A DNA stretch of 64,000 nt from Candidatus Altimarinota bacterium (GTDB lineage Bacteria > Patescibacteriota > Gracilibacteria > BD1-5 > UBA6164), in NCBI GenBank assembly GCA_027019405.1, contig JALUWO010000206.1, forward strand, positions 40,001 through 104,000, in the 5' to 3' direction. How positions within the stretch are numbered: the first letter of the stretch is position 1; each line of letters starts with the position of its first letter. A program made the translations under genes and the position numbers. Below are positions 4,070-13,452 of this stretch, piece by piece. Below the pieces are notes generated by a model. That model made no database searches, was not told the origin of the DNA, and was given only the letters and a program-made list of their open reading frames with translations.

Positions 4070-4096
4070 AAGACTTATTATTATAATAAGTCTTTT
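4070..4096. terminator. Bidirectional terminator between convergent operons
   Basis: Inverted repeat agacttatt / aataagtct (4071-4079 and 4085-4093) with A and T runs on both sides. It ends the CDF operon on the plus strand. The stop codon of the minus-strand kinase (4081-4083) lies inside it. Confidence 0.75.
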
Positions 4097-5361
4097 ATAG
4101 TAAAACAAGTTCATTTTCATAATTCACTTTTGATTTCTATTTTCCAATTAAATAATTCACAAATTTTTTTAACTATGGTTAATCAAAGTCAATTTCAATT
4201 ATTATAATATAAGCCTGAATTTTTATTTCTATAAAATCTATTAAATATTTTTTTTATTTCATTTTTTTCTATTCAAATTCATTGATCACATATATTAATT
4301 TTATTTTTATTTATAGAGATTTCTATTGTATTATTACCTTGATTATAAAAAATGGCATTATTTATAATATTTCAAAATAATCTATCTAAATAATATTTAT
4401 TATTTGTTATTTTAAAATTCTTTATTATTTTTAAATTTATAATAATATTTTTTTCTTTTGCTATAGGGGTATATTTTTTTATTAATTCTTGAAAATAATT
4501 TTCAATATCTATTTCTTCTTTTTTTAGATTTAGATTTTCTCATCTTAGAATAAAACTCAGATTTTTAATTATTTCATTTATATTTTCAGTTGAATTTTTT
4601 ATTTGTATCAGTTTATTTAATACTTTTTCATCATTTATTTTTTCTTCCAATATTTCTATATTTGAATTTATTTGCATTAAAGGAGTCTTTAATTCATGAC
4701 TTACATCTTGAATAAAATCTTTTTGTTTTTCTAGTATATCATTATTTTGTTTTATAAAATTATTTATAGCTATTGTTAATTGTCCTATTTCTGTGTTTCA
4801 ATAATTATTTTTTACTAATATATTTTTATTTTTTTTATTATATTTATTTAGAAAATTAATTAAAATATTTAATGGTTCTAAAAATATTTTTGTAAGATAA
4901 TTTATAAAAATTAAAACAGTTAAAATTAAAAATAAATTTAGTATTAATAATATTTTAAAAAAGTCATTTTTAATTATTTTTGATTCTATAAGTTTTTTTT
5001 CAAGTATTATATTATATCATTTATAGTCTCATCTAAAAATTAAATTATCATTTGATATATTAATTCATTTTTTATATTTTGCTTGTATTATTTTATCATT
5101 TTTTCATATGTATAGAAAAAATCATAAGTTATTTATTTTTTCTATTTCATATTTTGGAATTTGTACATAATAATTATTTTTTTCTATATTTATAAAGGTT
5201 TTTATTGTACTATATTCATTTAAAATATTATTATATATTGTATATTTTGTATTTGTTTGAATAAGAAAATATAGTAAAAATAAAAATATATTTACTATTA
5301 TTATTATAAAAATTGTGAATCATATGAATACTCTTTGTTTTATTCAAAATTTTGCTTTCAT
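4081..5361 (-). CDS. Membrane sensor histidine kinase (system 2)
   Basis: A 426-residue kinase. Two membrane helices (about residues 13-38 and 128-150) bracket a sensor of roughly 90 residues, followed by a HAMP-like linker. The H-box DVSHELKTPLMQI is near residue 220. The ATP-binding domain has the N-box FGNIINNAIFY, the G1 box DQGIGI and the G2 box NGLGLTMVKKI, and closes with SELGKGTCF. The last codons run into the bidirectional terminator. It is the second gene of a regulator-kinase operon read leftwards, 16 bases after the regulator. Confidence 0.9.
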
Positions 5362-5377
5362 AAAAAATTATTAAGTT

Positions 5378-6052
5378 TTATTTTTCTTCAAATTTAAATC
5401 ATATTCATCTTATAGTTTTTATAGGATCATAATTAAATCAAGTATTTATTTTAGTTCTTAATGTTTGTATATGACTTCTTACTACATCAGACCATATATC
5501 ATTATTTATTCCCCAAATATATTCTAGTAATTCTTTTTTAGGGATTACTTTATTTTTATTTTTCATTAGATATTCTAATATTTGGAATTCTTTTGGTGTT
5601 AATTCTATAAGTTTTCAGTTTCTTTTTACTTGTTTTAAATCAAGATTTAATTCTATATCTCAAATTTTTATTGTATTTATAGATTCTATATTATTTACCC
5701 TTTTTAAAATTGCTCTTATTCTTAAAAGTAATTCTTTTAGTTTAAATGGTTTTGTTATATAATCATCTCAACCTGCTAAAAATCAAGTTTCTATACTTTC
5801 TAAATCTTCTTTTGCTGTTAGGAAAATTATAGGAGTTTTTATTTCTTCTTTTCTAAGTTCTTTTGCAATTTCAAATCCTGATTTAAATGGTAGCATAACA
5901 TCAAAAAGGAATAAATCATATTTGTTTCTTTTTGATTCTTTATATCAACTTTCTCAATCTTGTTCCCATTTAACTAAAAAATTATTTTCTTCTAGATATT
6001 CTTTTATATTTTCTCAGATTATTTTATCATCTTCTACTAATAATATTTTCAT
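5378..6052 (-). CDS. OmpR/PhoB-family response regulator (system 2)
   Basis: A 224-residue regulator: receiver (VEDDK acidic pair, LFDVMLP phospho-Asp, LTAK, ITKPF) and winged-helix output domain ending RSHIQTLRTKI...IRGIGFKFEEK. It is divergent from the membrane PH-like gene. The shared 150-bp upstream region carries three 11-bp direct repeats, the spacing typical of OmpR/PhoB-class binding, so this protein is the best candidate to bind there and at the matching site upstream of the Bat operon. That link is inferred from repeat architecture and proximity. Confidence 0.92.
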
Positions 6053-6127
6053 ATAATTTTTTAATTAATTATTATATAATCAATATTATTTTTTTTTGTA
6101 AATAATACAATTAAATTTTTAAAAAAT

Positions 6128-6168
6128 AACATAATATTAACATATTCTTGACATAATATTAATATAAT
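6128..6168 (+). promoter_or_regulatory. Promoter with three 11-bp direct repeats abutting TATAAT (site 1)
   Basis: AACATAATATT (6128), AACATATTCTT (6139) and GACATAATATT (6150) lie head to tail at exactly 11-bp phasing, followed 2 bp later by TATAAT (6163-6168). No standard -35 is correctly spaced from this -10, so the repeats occupy the -35 region, as in PhoB-type class II activation. It drives the gene at 6203 and may also serve the divergent regulator. Confidence 0.7.
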
Positions 6169-6202
6169 AATTATTAATTATATTATTTAATTTAATAATT
6201 AT

Positions 6203-6700
6203 ATGTCTACTAACATTACAATAGAAGAGATTAAAAAGAAAATATTTTTAAAAACTAATAAAACATTTATATTATTATTTTTTAAAATATTATTATCAAC
6301 ATTTTTTATAGATACTATTGTTATATTATCTTTTAGTTTTGTTGATTATATTGATATAAAAAATGTTTGATTTTTTAATATGTATTCATTTGAAGAAAAT
6401 ATATTTATATTAGCCTTATTTTTTCATTTGTTATTTTTTATATATTTATTTATATTATGGATAATTGATTTTTATGAAGTAAAATTATGAAAAATAATTC
6501 ATACTAATTGATTATTTTTTAAAAAATCAGAGTCATTTACAATTGGTAAAATAAATACAATACAATTATATCAAAGTTTTTTTTGAAAATTATTTGATTA
6601 TTGAGATATAAGTATATTTTATCATGAAAAAGTATTTATTTTAAAGAAAATACCACATCCTAAAGAATTCATTGATTTAATTGAAATTTTTAAAGATTAG
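6203..6700 (+). CDS. Membrane protein with bacterial PH-like (bPH2) domain
   Basis: A 165-residue protein with two hydrophobic segments (about 22-48 and 70-92) and a soluble C-terminal half. That half reads like the bPH2/YdbS-YdbT fold, with the typical FGKLFDYGDISIFYHEKVF strand pair and the closing helix KIPHPKEFIDLIE. The role is unknown; such domains often sit beside envelope-stress systems. It is transcribed from the repeat-bearing promoter and lies between the second two-component system and the Bat operon, whose own promoter has the same architecture, so co-regulation is likely. Confidence 0.7.
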
Positions 6701-6725
6701 TTTTTTAAAATTTTAACAAAATAAA

Positions 6726-6766
6726 AACATAATCTTGACATTTTCTTGACACTTAGTTATTATAAT
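6726..6766 (+). promoter_or_regulatory. Promoter with three 11-bp direct repeats abutting TATAAT (site 2)
   Basis: AACATAATCTT (6726), GACATTTTCTT (6737) and GACACTTAGTT (6748) are phased at 11 bp, then 2 bp, then TATAAT at 6761-6766. The layout is identical to the site at 6128, including the 2-bp gap to the -10. The start codon of the BatD-like gene follows 31 bp after the -10 box. It is the likely activator-dependent promoter of the whole Bat operon. Confidence 0.72.
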
Positions 6767-6797: not shown

Positions 6798-7742
6798 ATG
6801 AAGAAGATTTTTAAAATATTTATTTTTATATTAATATTTGTTTATATTATTTGAAATGCTTTTGCTTTTGATGCTCAAATGCAAGTAGATAAAACAAATG
6901 TATGATTATGAGAAACTTTTAATTTGAGGTTTGAAGTTAAAACTGCAACTTGAGGTAATATATCTATAAAGGATATAAAAAATATAAACAATTTTAATAT
7001 TGTTTGAAAAAGTCAATCAAGTAGTTCTGCTACACAGATTGTTGTTGAAAATTGAAAAACTAAATCAAAAAGTATAACAACATATGATTTAGATTTAGTT
7101 TTACAAGCTAAAAATAAATGAAAATTTGAATTATGACCTGCTATTATAAATCAGAATTGAAAAGATATAAAAACTAATAGTGTTAGTGTAAATGTTACAG
7201 ATGTTCCTATTATTAATAATACTTCTAATAATAATGTTGTTAATAGTTGAGTAAATAATTCTCTAAGAAAAAAAACTATAGAAAAATATGATTATAATAT
7301 TATTTATTTTTTATTGATTATTATATGAATAGTTTGAACTTTATTTTATTTAAATAAAAAATGATTATTATTTGATAATAGTATAAAAAAAATAGAAGAT
7401 AATAATATTGATACTGAAAATAATAATATAAAAGATGAAAAAAAGATTACAGATAATGAAGATGAAATAAAAGAAGTAAATATTGAAGAAATAGAAAAGA
7501 CTTTTAGTTATCCTGAGATAAATGATATAGACTTTAATAATAAAATAGATGAAATTTTTAGAAAAAAGTTAGAATCTAAATTTTGAATTTGAAATATATA
7601 TTGATTAACATATGAAGAAATTTTAAAAAAGACTTGAAATAAACAGGAAATTAAAGATGTAGTAGATTTATTAGTAAAAATAAAATATTCAAATGTTATT
7701 TTGGATAAAAATAAACTTTTAGAATTAATAAAAGATATATAA
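6798..7742 (+). CDS. BatD-like secreted and membrane-anchored protein
   Basis: A 314-residue protein. The signal peptide is hydrophobic and ends near GNAFAFDA. An immunoglobulin-like beta domain follows (about 25-135: DKTNVGLGETFNLRFEV), then a linker rich in Asn, one membrane helix (about 172-190) and a cytoplasmic acidic/helical tail. This is the layout of BatD ('oxygen tolerance') proteins, shorter than the usual 500 or so residues. It opens an operon with MoxR, DUF58, BatA, BatB and a TPR protein, which strengthens the call. Its stop overlaps the next ATG (TAATG). Confidence 0.75.
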
Positions 7743-7936: not shown

Positions 7937-8953
7937 ATGGAAAAAGAAATAAAAGAAAATAAAGAAATAAAAAATAATAATAAATTTGAAGCAGAAGTAA
8001 AGGAGGCTTCAGATAAAATTGTAGAATTGAAAAATGAAGTACATAAAAAAATAGTTTGACAAGATTTTTTAATAGAAAGTTTAGTAATTGCTATTTTATC
8101 TGAAGGTCATGTATTACTTGAATGAGTGCCTTGATTAGCTAAAACTCTTACTGTTGATACTTTAAGTAAAGCTTTGGAATTATGATTTAATAGGATTCAA
8201 TTTACTCCTGATTTACTTCCAAGTGATTTAATATGAACTGAAATATATAATCAAAAAACTTGAGAATTTGATATTAAAAAAGGACCTATATTTAATAATT
8301 TTATTTTAGCTGATGAAATAAATAGAGCTCCTTCAAAAGTTCAATCTGCATTGTTGGAAGCTATGGCAGAAGGACATATAACTATTGCAAAAAATACTTT
8401 TGAGCTTGAAAAACCTTTTATTGTCTTGGCTACACAAAATCCAGTTGAACAAGTATGAACTTATAAATTACCAGAAGCATGACTTGATAGATTTATGTTA
8501 AAAGTTGATGTTGATTATCCAACAAAACAAGAAGAAAAAGAAGTTTATAAAAAGATAACTTCAGATGAAAAAGTTAAAATAAATAAAATTTTTACTAAAA
8601 AAGATATATTTAAATTACAAAAATTAGTAAAAGATATTTATGTTTCTGAAAATATTTATGATTATGTTTCAGATATAATTGATGCATCTAGAAATCCTAA
8701 AGATTATGATTTATCATGAATTGAAAAATATATTGATTTTTGAATTTCACCTAGATGATGAATTTCACTTATAAATGCAGCAAAAGCTAATGCATTAATT
8801 GAAAATAGAACATTTATTATACCTGAGGATATAAAAAAGATGGCAAAAATGGCATTAGCTCATAGATTAGTATTAAGTTATGAAGCTGTTGCAATGGATA
8901 TTACAAGTTCACAAATAATTGATAATATTTTACAAAATGTGAAAGTTAAATAA
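7937..8953 (+). CDS. MoxR-family AAA+ ATPase
   Basis: A 338-residue AAA+ chaperone-like ATPase. An N-terminal charged helix (1-35) precedes the core: Walker A LLEGVPGLAKT (about 63-73), Walker [11 protein letters not shown] (about 126-135), sensor 1 LATQNPVEQ and the arginine finger region GLDRFML. A C-terminal helical lid closes it. MoxR proteins assist maturation of vWA-domain partners, and here two vWA proteins are encoded just downstream. The next gene starts 16 bases before this stop, in another frame. Confidence 0.93.
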
Positions 8954-9821
8954 AAAAATAAGATTATTAGAGTATAAATTTAAGAAAAATCTTTGAGCAG
9001 ATTTACTATGATTATATAAAACAAATTTTAAATGACAATGAATGGAATTTGCTGAACTTAGAGAATATGCTTATTGAGATCCTATTAAACATGTTGATTG
9101 GAAAACTACAGCTAGAACATGAAAGATGCAAACTAGAATTTATGAGGAAGAAAGGGATTTAAATGTATTATTTTTATTAGATATAAGTGATAATATGGAG
9201 TTTACTTCAGCTAAAAAAACTAAAAAAGATATATCTCAAGAAGTTTTTTACAGTCTAGCTTATAGTGCAATTGCAAATAATGATAATATATGATCTTTAT
9301 TTTATGATGATAAATGATTTTTAGAATTTTTGAATTTTAAAAAATGAGTTTCTCAAATATATAAAATAATTGAAAAATGGGATGAAAATACAAAAATTAA
9401 TAATAAAAATAAGAAATCTAATTATACACTAGATGCTTTTAAAAAAATATCAGATTTGAAATTAAAGAGAAATTTAATTTTTGTTTTAACTACAGATACT
9501 AGTATAAAAAATAGTAATATATTAAGATTAGTTTGAGAAGAAAATGAGATTATTTATATAAATATATTTGATTATTTTGAAAATAATTTAGAAATTCCAT
9601 GAATTGATTTAAAAAATATTGAATTAAATTTATGAATTAATAATTCTATTTTGGATATAGATTTAACAAATAAAACAAAAATATTAGAATATAAGCAAAT
9701 AAGAAATAAAAAAATATGAGATTATAAGATTTTTTTGGAGAAAAATAAAGTTTCATATTTAAAAATTGATAATATAGATAATTCTTATAATAAACTTTTA
9801 GAATTTTTTTCTAGAAGGTAA
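8937..9821 (+). CDS. DUF58 protein
   Basis: A 294-residue DUF58 protein, the usual companion of MoxR. The conserved block EFAELREYAYGDP...VDWKTTART is at about residues 38-60, followed by a vWA-like half with LFLLDISDNMEF (a degenerate metal-site D-x-S). Near full family length. Start chosen at the ATG overlapping the moxR 3' end, followed directly by a TGA glycine. It is probably cytoplasmic and membrane-associated. It likely works with the MoxR ATPase and the BatA/BatB sensors. Confidence 0.9.
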
Positions 9822-9845: not shown

Positions 9846-10313
9846 ATGACTTGAATGACAGATATTTATGGAATACAACCATTATTGTTAGATAATTTTA
9901 TTAATTATAAAATAAGTTTTATTTATCTTATTGTTATAATTTTAATTTTATTATTTCTATATTATATCTATGAAAAAAATAAAATTAAAGTTAGTGTAAT
10001 AGATAATAGTCCTATAATTAATAAAAGAGATTTTTCTATTGATTTAGATTTATTATATGAAAAATATTTATCTGCACAAAGAGAATTATTTTATTCAAAA
10101 TTACTTTGAATTTTAAGAGATTATTTAGAATATAAAACTTGAAAACATATTACTAAGATGACTCTTGATGAATTAAAAAGTTTAAAATTAAATAATAATT
10201 TATATAAGATTATTTCTAGTTTGTACTATAAAGAATATTCAGATAATTCTTTAGATGATAATTTAGATGAGAGAAAAAAATTAATAGAAAAAATAAAAAA
10301 TATAATTAAATAA
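9846..10313 (+). CDS. Single-span membrane protein of the Bat operon
   Basis: A 155-residue protein with a short extracytoplasmic N-terminus, one strong membrane helix (about residues 23-43) and a helical cytoplasmic domain (LLYEKYLSAQRELFYSKLL...). The layout resembles the DUF4381-like small protein often placed between DUF58 and BatA genes, but I cannot confirm the family. It starts 24 bases after DUF58 and ends 7 bases before BatA. It is likely a structural partner of the Bat complex. Confidence 0.6.
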
Positions 10314-10320
10314 TCAATAT

Positions 10321-11295
10321 ATGAATATATTTAGTAACATAGAATTTTTGAATAAGTATTATTTTATATTACTTATAATAATACCTTTATTTATTTATTT
10401 GTATTATAAAAAAAGGAAATATATAAAATTTTCTTATTTTGATGATTTACAAAAAGTTTTTAGAAAAAATAGTTTATTTTTTTACATTAAATTATTTTTA
10501 ATTTCTATTTTAGTATCTTTGATGGTACTAATTATTGCAAATCCTAATAGTATAAATACAGATAAACATATAAAAAAGAATGGTATTGATATAATGTTAT
10601 TATTGGATGTTTCTCCTAGTATGGATACTCCAGATTTAAAACCTAGTAGAATAGAAGTAGCTAAAAAAGTTATATGAGATTTTATTTCAAATGCAAAAAC
10701 AGATAGATTATGACTTGTTGTTTTTTCTTGAAAACCATTTACCTCTATTCCATTAACATTTGATTACAATATTTTGAAAGAAACAATCTCAAATATAACT
10801 ACTCAAACCTTAAGATTGAATTGAACAAATATTTGAGATTCAATATTATTAGCAAAAAATATTTTTGAGAAGCAAATAAAAAAAGAGGACTTTAAAAAAA
10901 GACAAAAAGTTATTATTTTGGTAACTGATGGAGATTCAAATGTTTGAATAGATCCTATTATAGCAGCAAAAGCAGCTAGTGATGATTGAATAAAAATTTA
11001 TACTATTTGAATATGATGAAGAAAACCATTATTTATTAGTTGATTATGAATTATTCCTCCTCTAAATGCTACTACATTGAAAAAAATAGCACAAGTTACT
11101 TGATGAGAATTTTTTAGAGCAGATTCAAATTATAGTTTTCAAAGAATATTTGATAAATTAAAAACTTTACAATCAAATGATATAGAAGTAGAGATAAAAA
11201 AACAATATTCTCAAGAATACTATAAGTTTGCAATGTTATTATTATTTATTTTTAGTATTTATATATTTTTAGTATTTGCAAAAATAGAAAAATAA
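10321..11295 (+). CDS. BatA-like vWA membrane protein
   Basis: A 324-residue protein with two N-terminal membrane helices (about 14-28 and 60-78), a von Willebrand factor A domain (about 88-285) and a C-terminal membrane helix (about 300-318). The MIDAS motif is intact: LLLDVSPSMD (D-x-S-x-S) near residue 93, a conserved Thr in NGTNIGD and VTDGDSNVG. This is the canonical BatA layout. It is probably a metal-dependent protein-interaction module facing the periplasmic or outer side. Confidence 0.92.
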
Positions 11296-11327: not shown

Positions 11328-12336
11328 ATGGAATTATGAAATTTTAATATATATACTTTGATTTTATTTTTAGTTATATTGCTAGTTTTATTTTATATAA
11401 TTTATTTATATATAAATAAAATTAAAAATCTTTCAGATAAATCATTATTATTTACAAGGAAAATAAGTTTTAAATATTTATTTTTGTTTTTATCATTTTT
11501 TTTAGTACTTATAACTATTTTTCAACCTAAATGATGAGAATTAAAAAATAATAATGAAGCAAAATGAATTGATGTAGTATTTACTTTAGATGTTTCAAAA
11601 TCTATGAATGTTGCAGATATAAGTGATAATCATTATAATTATACAAGACTTGATATTGTAAAAAATGCTATTTGAAATTTTGTTTCAAAATATAAGGAAG
11701 ATAGATTTTGATTAGTTATATTTGCTTGAGATGCTATTTCAAGTGTTCCTTTAACTCTTGATCATGATGTTTTTTTAACTTTTTTAAAATGAGTTGATTA
11801 TAGAAATATATTAAAACAATGAACTGATTTAAAAAAAGCTGTAAAAATGGCTGTAAATAGATTTGATTTAAATGATAATAGATCAAAAGTTGTAGTTATA
11901 GTTTCTGATTGAGCAGATAGTGATTATAAAATAGATATAGATTATTTTAAACAATTAAAAAATAAATATAAAAATATTAAATTTTTTGTTGTTTGAGTTT
12001 GAACTGATAAATGATGAATGATTATTAAATGAAATGATGTTTTTTGAAGGCAAATATATCAAAAATATAATTGAAAATATGTTATATCAAAAATAAATAG
12101 GAATAATCTTGAACTTCTTGCTAGTAGTTTATGAGCTAAATATGTTGAAATTAAAAATATATGAGATTTAAATAAAATAAGTTGAGATTTAAATAAGCTA
12201 GATAAAGAAATATTAAATTCCAATATTAATTGAGAAAAAAATGATTTAACTAGAATATTTGTTTTTATTTCATTTATATTATTTTTAATTTATATGTTTT
12301 GGGATTTTAGTAATTTTTTAATAAAAAGATGAAACT

Positions 12337-12350
<14 letters not shown>
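11328..12350 (+). CDS. BatB-like vWA membrane protein
   Basis: A 340-residue paralogue of the preceding BatA-like protein: two N-terminal helices, a vWA domain with MIDAS FTLDVSKSMN (about residue 87), LKQGTDLKKAV and IVSDGADSD, and a C-terminal membrane helix (about 310-328). In Bat operons BatA and BatB are consecutive and probably form a heteromeric complex. The last 14 bases overlap the TPR gene, so the two are translationally coupled. Confidence 0.92.

Positions 12351-13452
<1,102 letters not shown>

Follow-up and report, generated by a model that had tools for sequence, protein, structure and literature searches.

The window analysed here, i.e., the whole 64,000-nt stretch of DNA, belongs to the genome (G000) of an uncultured bacterium, assembled as 2.7 Mb in 504 contigs, which is 93% complete and larger than nearly all of its relatives. 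This genome reads TGA as glycine: long reading frames were open under code 25 and broken under table 11. On the reverse strand of the window lies the gene for a 224-aa response regulator (RR2; 5378–6052; TGA read as glycine), directly followed downstream by that for its partner histidine kinase (HK2; 4081–5361, reverse strand; Pfam HisKA and HATPase_c). RR2 comprises a receiver domain (Response_reg, 2.7e-25) and a C-terminal winged helix (Trans_reg_C, 2.5e-22), both of which scored far over the Pfam cut-offs, and its best solved relatives, DrrD, MtrA and PhoP, are all members of the OmpR/PhoB family. The Pfam matches, together with a regulator tree, bear out the OmpR/PhoB class that an earlier sequence-only reading of the locus had assigned to this gene.

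The genes on the forward strand start with that for a 165-aa membrane protein carrying a bacterial PH domain (bPH; 6203–6700; Pfam bPH_2, 9.4e-06, above the cut-off). It is followed by genes for a BatD-like protein (6798–7742; BatD, 8e-16), a MoxR-type AAA ATPase (7937–8953; AAA_3, 1.6e-62), a DUF58 protein (8919–9821 as listed from TTG, the true start being probably an ATG six codons inside; DUF58, 1.2e-26), a 155-aa membrane protein of which the position is kept in relatives (9846–10313), two VWA proteins of the BatA/BatB type (10321–11295, VWA, 3.6e-24; 11328–12350, VWA_2, 3.3e-18) and a TPR protein of the BatC/E type (12337–13452), for which the Pfam TPR matches were weak (best 5.2e-06, below the curated cut-off). 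With the MoxR ATPase, DUF58, VWA, TPR and BatD proteins encoded together, as judged from Pfam and from the gene order kept in relatives, these genes make up a Bat (aerotolerance) operon, for which a role in oxidative or envelope stress would be expected.

The other response regulator of the window, RR1 (1284–1946), has an 11-bp array of its own, TTTAAAC-N4-TTTAAAC at 1223–1257, before TATTAT/TATATT. The RR1 promoters in the genomes G067, G029 and G031 are nearly identical to that of the window (CTTAAACTTCTCTTAAACTAAAAAGTTATTAT), and this array adds a further, separate regulator code to the two described below for the family. At about 1244–1280, in the spacer between RR1 and the gene of a small lipoprotein, we also noticed an extended inverted repeat made up of A and T only and ending in T (AAAAAGTTATTATATTAACAATAATATAATAACTTTTT), a putative terminator or leader element that overlaps the -10 region of RR1.

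Two arrays of 11-bp direct repeats were found on the forward strand. Array 1, located in the divergent spacer between RR2 and bPH, points to bPH and away from RR2; it consists of AACATAATATT (6128–6138), AACATATTCTT (6139–6149) and GACATAATATT (6150–6160), followed by AA and a TATAAT box (6163–6168) that ends 34 nt before the ATG of bPH. Array 2, directly before BatD, consists of AACATAATCTT (6726–6736), GACATTTTCTT (6737–6747) and GACACTTAGTT (6748–6758), followed by AT and TATAAT (6761–6766), which ends 31 nt before the ATG of BatD. The two promoters that the sequence-only reading had described, each with three 11-bp repeats, 2 bp and TATAAT (6128–6168 and 6726–6766), were correct in every letter. 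When framed on the hexamer CTTRAC, the repeats at 6128, 6139 and 6150 become AATAACATAAT, ATTAACATATT and CTTGACATAATATTAA (array 1, 6125–6162), the last copy starting 16 nt from the -10 box, and those at 6726, 6737 and 6748 become AAAAACATAAT, CTTGACATTTT and CTTGACACTTAGTTAT (array 2, 6712–6760), preceded by an extra fourth in-phase copy, TTTAACAAAAT, at 6712–6722.

The full pattern of three repeats and TATAAT matched exactly twice in the window and never in 100 dinucleotide shuffles. Without the -10 box, the three-repeat pattern had exactly two 0-mismatch matches in the whole 2.7-Mb genome, namely the two arrays, and, beyond the shifted registers of the arrays themselves, a single marginal match with three mismatches; at two mismatches or fewer, no match occurred in 100 Mb simulated with an order-3 Markov model (0.00 expected). 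Because the shuffled and simulated sequences gave none and the genome only two perfect matches, the array pattern is real and nearly unique in the genome, and chance is no explanation for it.

CTTAAC-like 11-bp repeats also stand upstream of the BatD homologues in the family. We scored the upstream regions of Bat operons for paired CTTRAC half-sites with an 11-bp period and a -10 box at 14–17 nt, against 200 shuffles each. All ten BatD-led Bat operons (G000, G003, G004, G009, G029, G030, G033, G035, G067 and G069) carry an 11-bp CTTRAC repeat 15–16 nt ahead of a -10 box, 30–40 nt before the start codon, and each match was equalled by no more than seven of the 200 shuffles. A lack of conservation of the repeats before orthologous Bat operons, which the sequence-only reading had named beforehand as speaking against its inference, is therefore not what the family displays. 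In the same scoring, no repeat/-10 match was obtained for G021 and G008, of which the Bat operons are not led by BatD, or for G002, which has a weak homologue. The core kept in the relatives comprises the two proximal copies and the -10 box, and the third, distal copy is kept only at sites of the RR2 type, one of the two described below.

A tree of 98 regulators united RR2 of G000 with those of G009 and G033 (75 and 69% identical), the regulators of G049, G028, G019 and G038 being placed farther off. A second clade, RR3, is present in many of the genomes with Bat. In the tree, RR3 was not found among the regulators of G000; with an assembly that is 93% complete and broken into many contigs, an RR3 gene may have escaped detection. 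A fragment that encodes the DNA-binding domain of a response regulator on another contig of this genome (C210:179-391) was considered and rejected as RR3, as it is not RR3-like and has no TGA-glycine codons; the contig is possibly a contaminant of the assembly.

The sites fall into two lists; both comprise sites picked as clear ones, and the contrast between them is therefore descriptive. Part of the motif rule was also set once some sites had been seen. At the RR2-type sites (n = 11), both half-sites end in A-C (CTTRAC) and the gap to the -10 box is 16 nt in 11/11; a third A-C lies exactly 11 bp upstream in eight of the 11, versus 0–2 at neighbouring offsets (P ~2e-8 at a generous background of 6%), and a fourth copy in four. 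At the RR3-type sites (n = 14), the half-sites are CTTAA[CT]-like, the gap is 15 nt and the third copy is missing, and RR3 genes are preceded by CTTAAY-N5-CTTAAY-N9-TATAAT of their own. The Bat promoters of genomes without RR2 carry the RR3 code, with a gap of 15 nt in six of seven, and those of G000, G009 and G033 carry the RR2 code, although G009 and G033 also possess RR3. The association of the gap with RR2 (Fisher p = 0.033) is suggestive only, because it was computed on related genomes. Thus, the arrays do not provide the one ready-made regulon motif for the organism group that the sequence-only reading had anticipated, as relatives without RR2 use another code, matching RR3. Judged from these promoters, the regulator has apparently been swapped on one promoter architecture within the family.

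In the three genomes with a close RR2 orthologue, Bat is always among the few near-perfect RR2-type sites of the genome. At one mismatch or fewer, G000 has three such sites (Bat, bPH and an FKBP lipoprotein at C86:10565), 0.11 being expected from a pattern slightly stricter than that of the scan; G009 has two (Bat and a small secreted protein); and G033 has three (BatD, DUF58 and the promoter of RR2 itself). The Bat operon of G033 is split between the contigs C32 and C2, with BatD and MoxR on one and DUF58 to TPR on the other, and the promoters of the two halves carry identical CTTAACGGTTTCTTAACA arrays; the DUF58 site surfaced in the genome scan, not in a directed look. Only near-perfect sites are informative, because loose scans (three mismatches; or TTCTTRAC-N3-TTCTTRAC in all 48 genomes) returned counts similar to those of a reversed-pattern control. 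The distant RR2 operons of G019, G028 and G049, the last from another family, have TTTGAC-N5-NNNGAC-N10 before the -10 box, likewise with a 16-nt gap. The leading gene after the array in each of these three operons codes for a small Lys/Ala-rich protein that is secreted and has KKATK/KTTKK repeats.

RR2-type sites therefore track RR2 and are kept at Bat, which supports the earlier claim that RR2 controls this operon, binding and activation being predicted. The parallel claim for bPH is supported by array 1 within G000 only, because no bPH orthologue was found in the relatives; in G067 and G029, what looked like orthologues next to Bat were spurious weak matches inside other genes. The FKBP lipoprotein was dismissed as a conserved target, as arrays were seen in G000 and G030 only among the ~30 family genomes checked. 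Consequently, two of the three targets in G000 are without phylogenetic support, and the RR2 regulon of this genome, with its three near-perfect sites, looks very small. RR2 had also been suggested perhaps to control itself, and in G033, G019, G028 and G049, RR2-type sites do occur in the promoter of RR2 itself or of the operon containing it. In G000, direct self-control stays hypothetical, array 1 being directed at bPH and not at RR2. Self-control through TTNAC-N6-TTNAC is not general, because only 2 of 79 RR2-like regulators across all bacteria carry this motif within 300 bp upstream.

PhoB makes base-specific contacts through V197 (PMC3264566). In all six genomes of the RR2 clade compared, the residue aligned with V197 of PhoB is Ser if TTGAC occurs in the sites and Thr if the sites have TTAAC alone; in all three sites of G000, the proximal copy is TTGAC and the distal copy is mixed. 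This pattern probably reflects one or two evolutionary events only. We give even chances to the fuller scenario, in which, within a TGA-glycine candidate-phylum lineage, Bat would have kept one promoter architecture while its regulator was exchanged (RR2 with CTTRACA and a 16-nt gap; RR3 with CTTAAY and a 15-nt gap), half-sites, spacing and repeat number being re-coded together, and a Ser/Thr switch in the recognition helix of RR2 would read TTGAC or TTAAC.

In the relatives, RR3-type sites are found upstream of RR3 itself, Bat, small secreted proteins, HtrA-like proteases (G004, G022 and G069), a cyclophilin/FKBP lipoprotein, i.e., a PPIase (G030), and a HlyD/MacAB-like export operon (G067 and G009). 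In the last two genomes (G067:C3:288000-298500 and G009:C43), this export operon is led by a small membrane protein, and several arrays are grouped around the RR3 gene. A family of secreted proteins of ~100 aa (motif KKxIQKRKKYHxNLL), without a Pfam match, has an RR2-type array in G009 (C61) and an RR3-type array in G069 (C17). CpxR envelope-stress regulons combine targets for envelope folding, proteolysis and export with a direct-repeat site and self-control. From its predicted members, the RR3-type target set resembles an envelope-stress regulon (for the character of which see PMC8831704), and the predicted RR2 targets in G000, namely Bat, the bPH membrane protein and the FKBP lipoprotein, appear to be of the same envelope kind. 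The likeness to CpxR lies mainly with RR3 in the relatives, where HtrA and the PPIase are found, and is weaker for RR2, which in G000 has only the one non-conserved FKBP lipoprotein. The half-site differs from that of CpxR, and no CpxP was recognisable: the small secreted protein beside RR3 in G003, tried as a CpxP/Spy (LTXXQ) candidate, had no Pfam match.

We propose that both arrays are binding sites of RR2, which would switch on the Bat operon and bPH, and consider this reading probable. RR2, presumably phosphorylated by the adjacent HK2 in response to a stimulus, would bind the repeats head to tail on the core CTTRACA-N4-CTTRACA, to which a weaker third, and sometimes a fourth, upstream copy would add. 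The bound regulator would substitute for the absent -35 element and recruit RNA polymerase to the -10 box, which lies 16 nt downstream of where the last repeat begins, i.e., class II activation. In G000, RR2 would thereby switch on bPH, the Bat operon and the FKBP-type lipoprotein as an envelope-maintenance regulon. In relatives lacking RR2, the Bat promoter has this architecture written in the RR3 code (CTTAAY, 15 nt).

Half-sites of OmpR-family regulators are mutually similar, and the arrays might be bound by another such regulator of G000, i.e., RR1, RR4 (at C57) or RR5 (at C80). RR1 and the Bat operon are 5 kb apart, RR1 orthologues are also near Bat in G035, G029 and G067, and RR4 occurs in every Bat genome of which the regulators were all listed. 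Nevertheless, RR1 is preceded by its own distinct array, both in the window and in G067, G029 and G031, RR4 and RR5 have no such array at their own promoters, and among the regulators the RR2-type code is common only to the promoter of RR2; we therefore regard binding by one of these regulators as unlikely. If RR2 is the binder, it may repress rather than activate, as some regulators of the OmpR family do, since polymerase could be blocked at a site that overlaps the -35 region. Such repression also seems quite unlikely, as CiaR-activated promoters have just this layout, with the site one helical turn ahead of the -10 box and no proper -35 element (PMC3091779), and Bat expression dropped in phoP and phoR deletions of Riemerella (PMC9603813).

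The TTGACA motifs could, alternatively, have been duplicated through slippage in AT-rich DNA or by chance and be no more than the -35 elements of ordinary, constitutive sigma-70 promoters. In array 2, TTGACA (6735) stands 17 bp before TATTAT (6758–6763), giving 11/12 consensus matches, and array 1 offers a 9/12 version of this overlapping reading. When the conserved -10 box is taken as the reference, both arrays have 0/6 consensus matches at 17 bp, i.e., no good -35, and the relatives have 0–3/6, while both half-sites and the 15–16 nt gap persist. Arrays this rare genome-wide, which in G033 mark both halves of the split Bat operon as well as RR2, and an in-phase third repeat, which would be meaningless for a plain -35, make the constitutive-promoter explanation very unlikely.

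The proposed control by RR2 has parallels in known systems. The CiaR box of streptococci is NTTAAG-N5-TTTAAG, 10 nt and TATAAT (PMC3091779); the window arrays, framed on CTTRAC, share with it the 11-bp direct repeat and the 10-nt spacer from hexamer to -10 box, and the regulator family is the same. The class II layout, an 11-bp repeat before the -10 box, is seen with a 16-nt gap at 11/11 RR2-type sites, but all 11 have half-sites ending in C where CiaR has an invariable G. They also differ from the CiaR box in their third or fourth upstream repeat, as do the targets (Bat and bPH) and the recognition helix of RR2. The RR2-type promoter is thus CiaR-like in layout and not a CiaR promoter. CiaR also controls htrA (PMC10197876), and RR3-type sites precede HtrA-like genes in the relatives.

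The target, too, has a precedent. PhoP of Riemerella anatipestifer, an OmpR-family regulator with the core TTTAACA, was reported to control the Bat operon directly, with EMSA at the moxR promoter and self-binding upstream of phoPR (PMC9603813). RR2 is likened to this PhoP by regulator family, motif core and (predicted) target, not by established orthology or repeat-to--10 geometry; the phylum is another, and PhoP has hundreds of sites compared with the three near-perfect ones in G000. The arrays further recall the pho boxes of PhoB and PhoP, for instance the 7-bp repeats with a 4-bp spacer of M. tuberculosis PhoP (PMC4832192), in their 11-bp direct repeats and in the head-to-tail dimers predicted for RR2. 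They differ in half-site and targets, with no phosphate genes at near-perfect sites.

Both the principle (the CiaR geometry) and even the target (Bat, in Riemerella PhoP) are already known; the novelty lies in the lineage, in a regulon that is small and defined, and in regulators having apparently been exchanged while the promoter architecture stayed the same. A limited literature search turned up no regulon described for these candidate-phylum bacteria with TGA read as glycine. For them, this analysis supplies a defined, predicted binding code with its regulator and three predicted targets, together with a second code, matched to it, in the relatives. OmpR-family two-component control of the Bat envelope machine, established experimentally in Riemerella (Bacteroidota), is thereby suggested in a very distant lineage. 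The split operon, the regulator swap and the one-residue change in the recognition helix form a natural series for studying how regulators and their sites change together, and the comparison across relatives yields a rare testable control circuit for this bacterial group.
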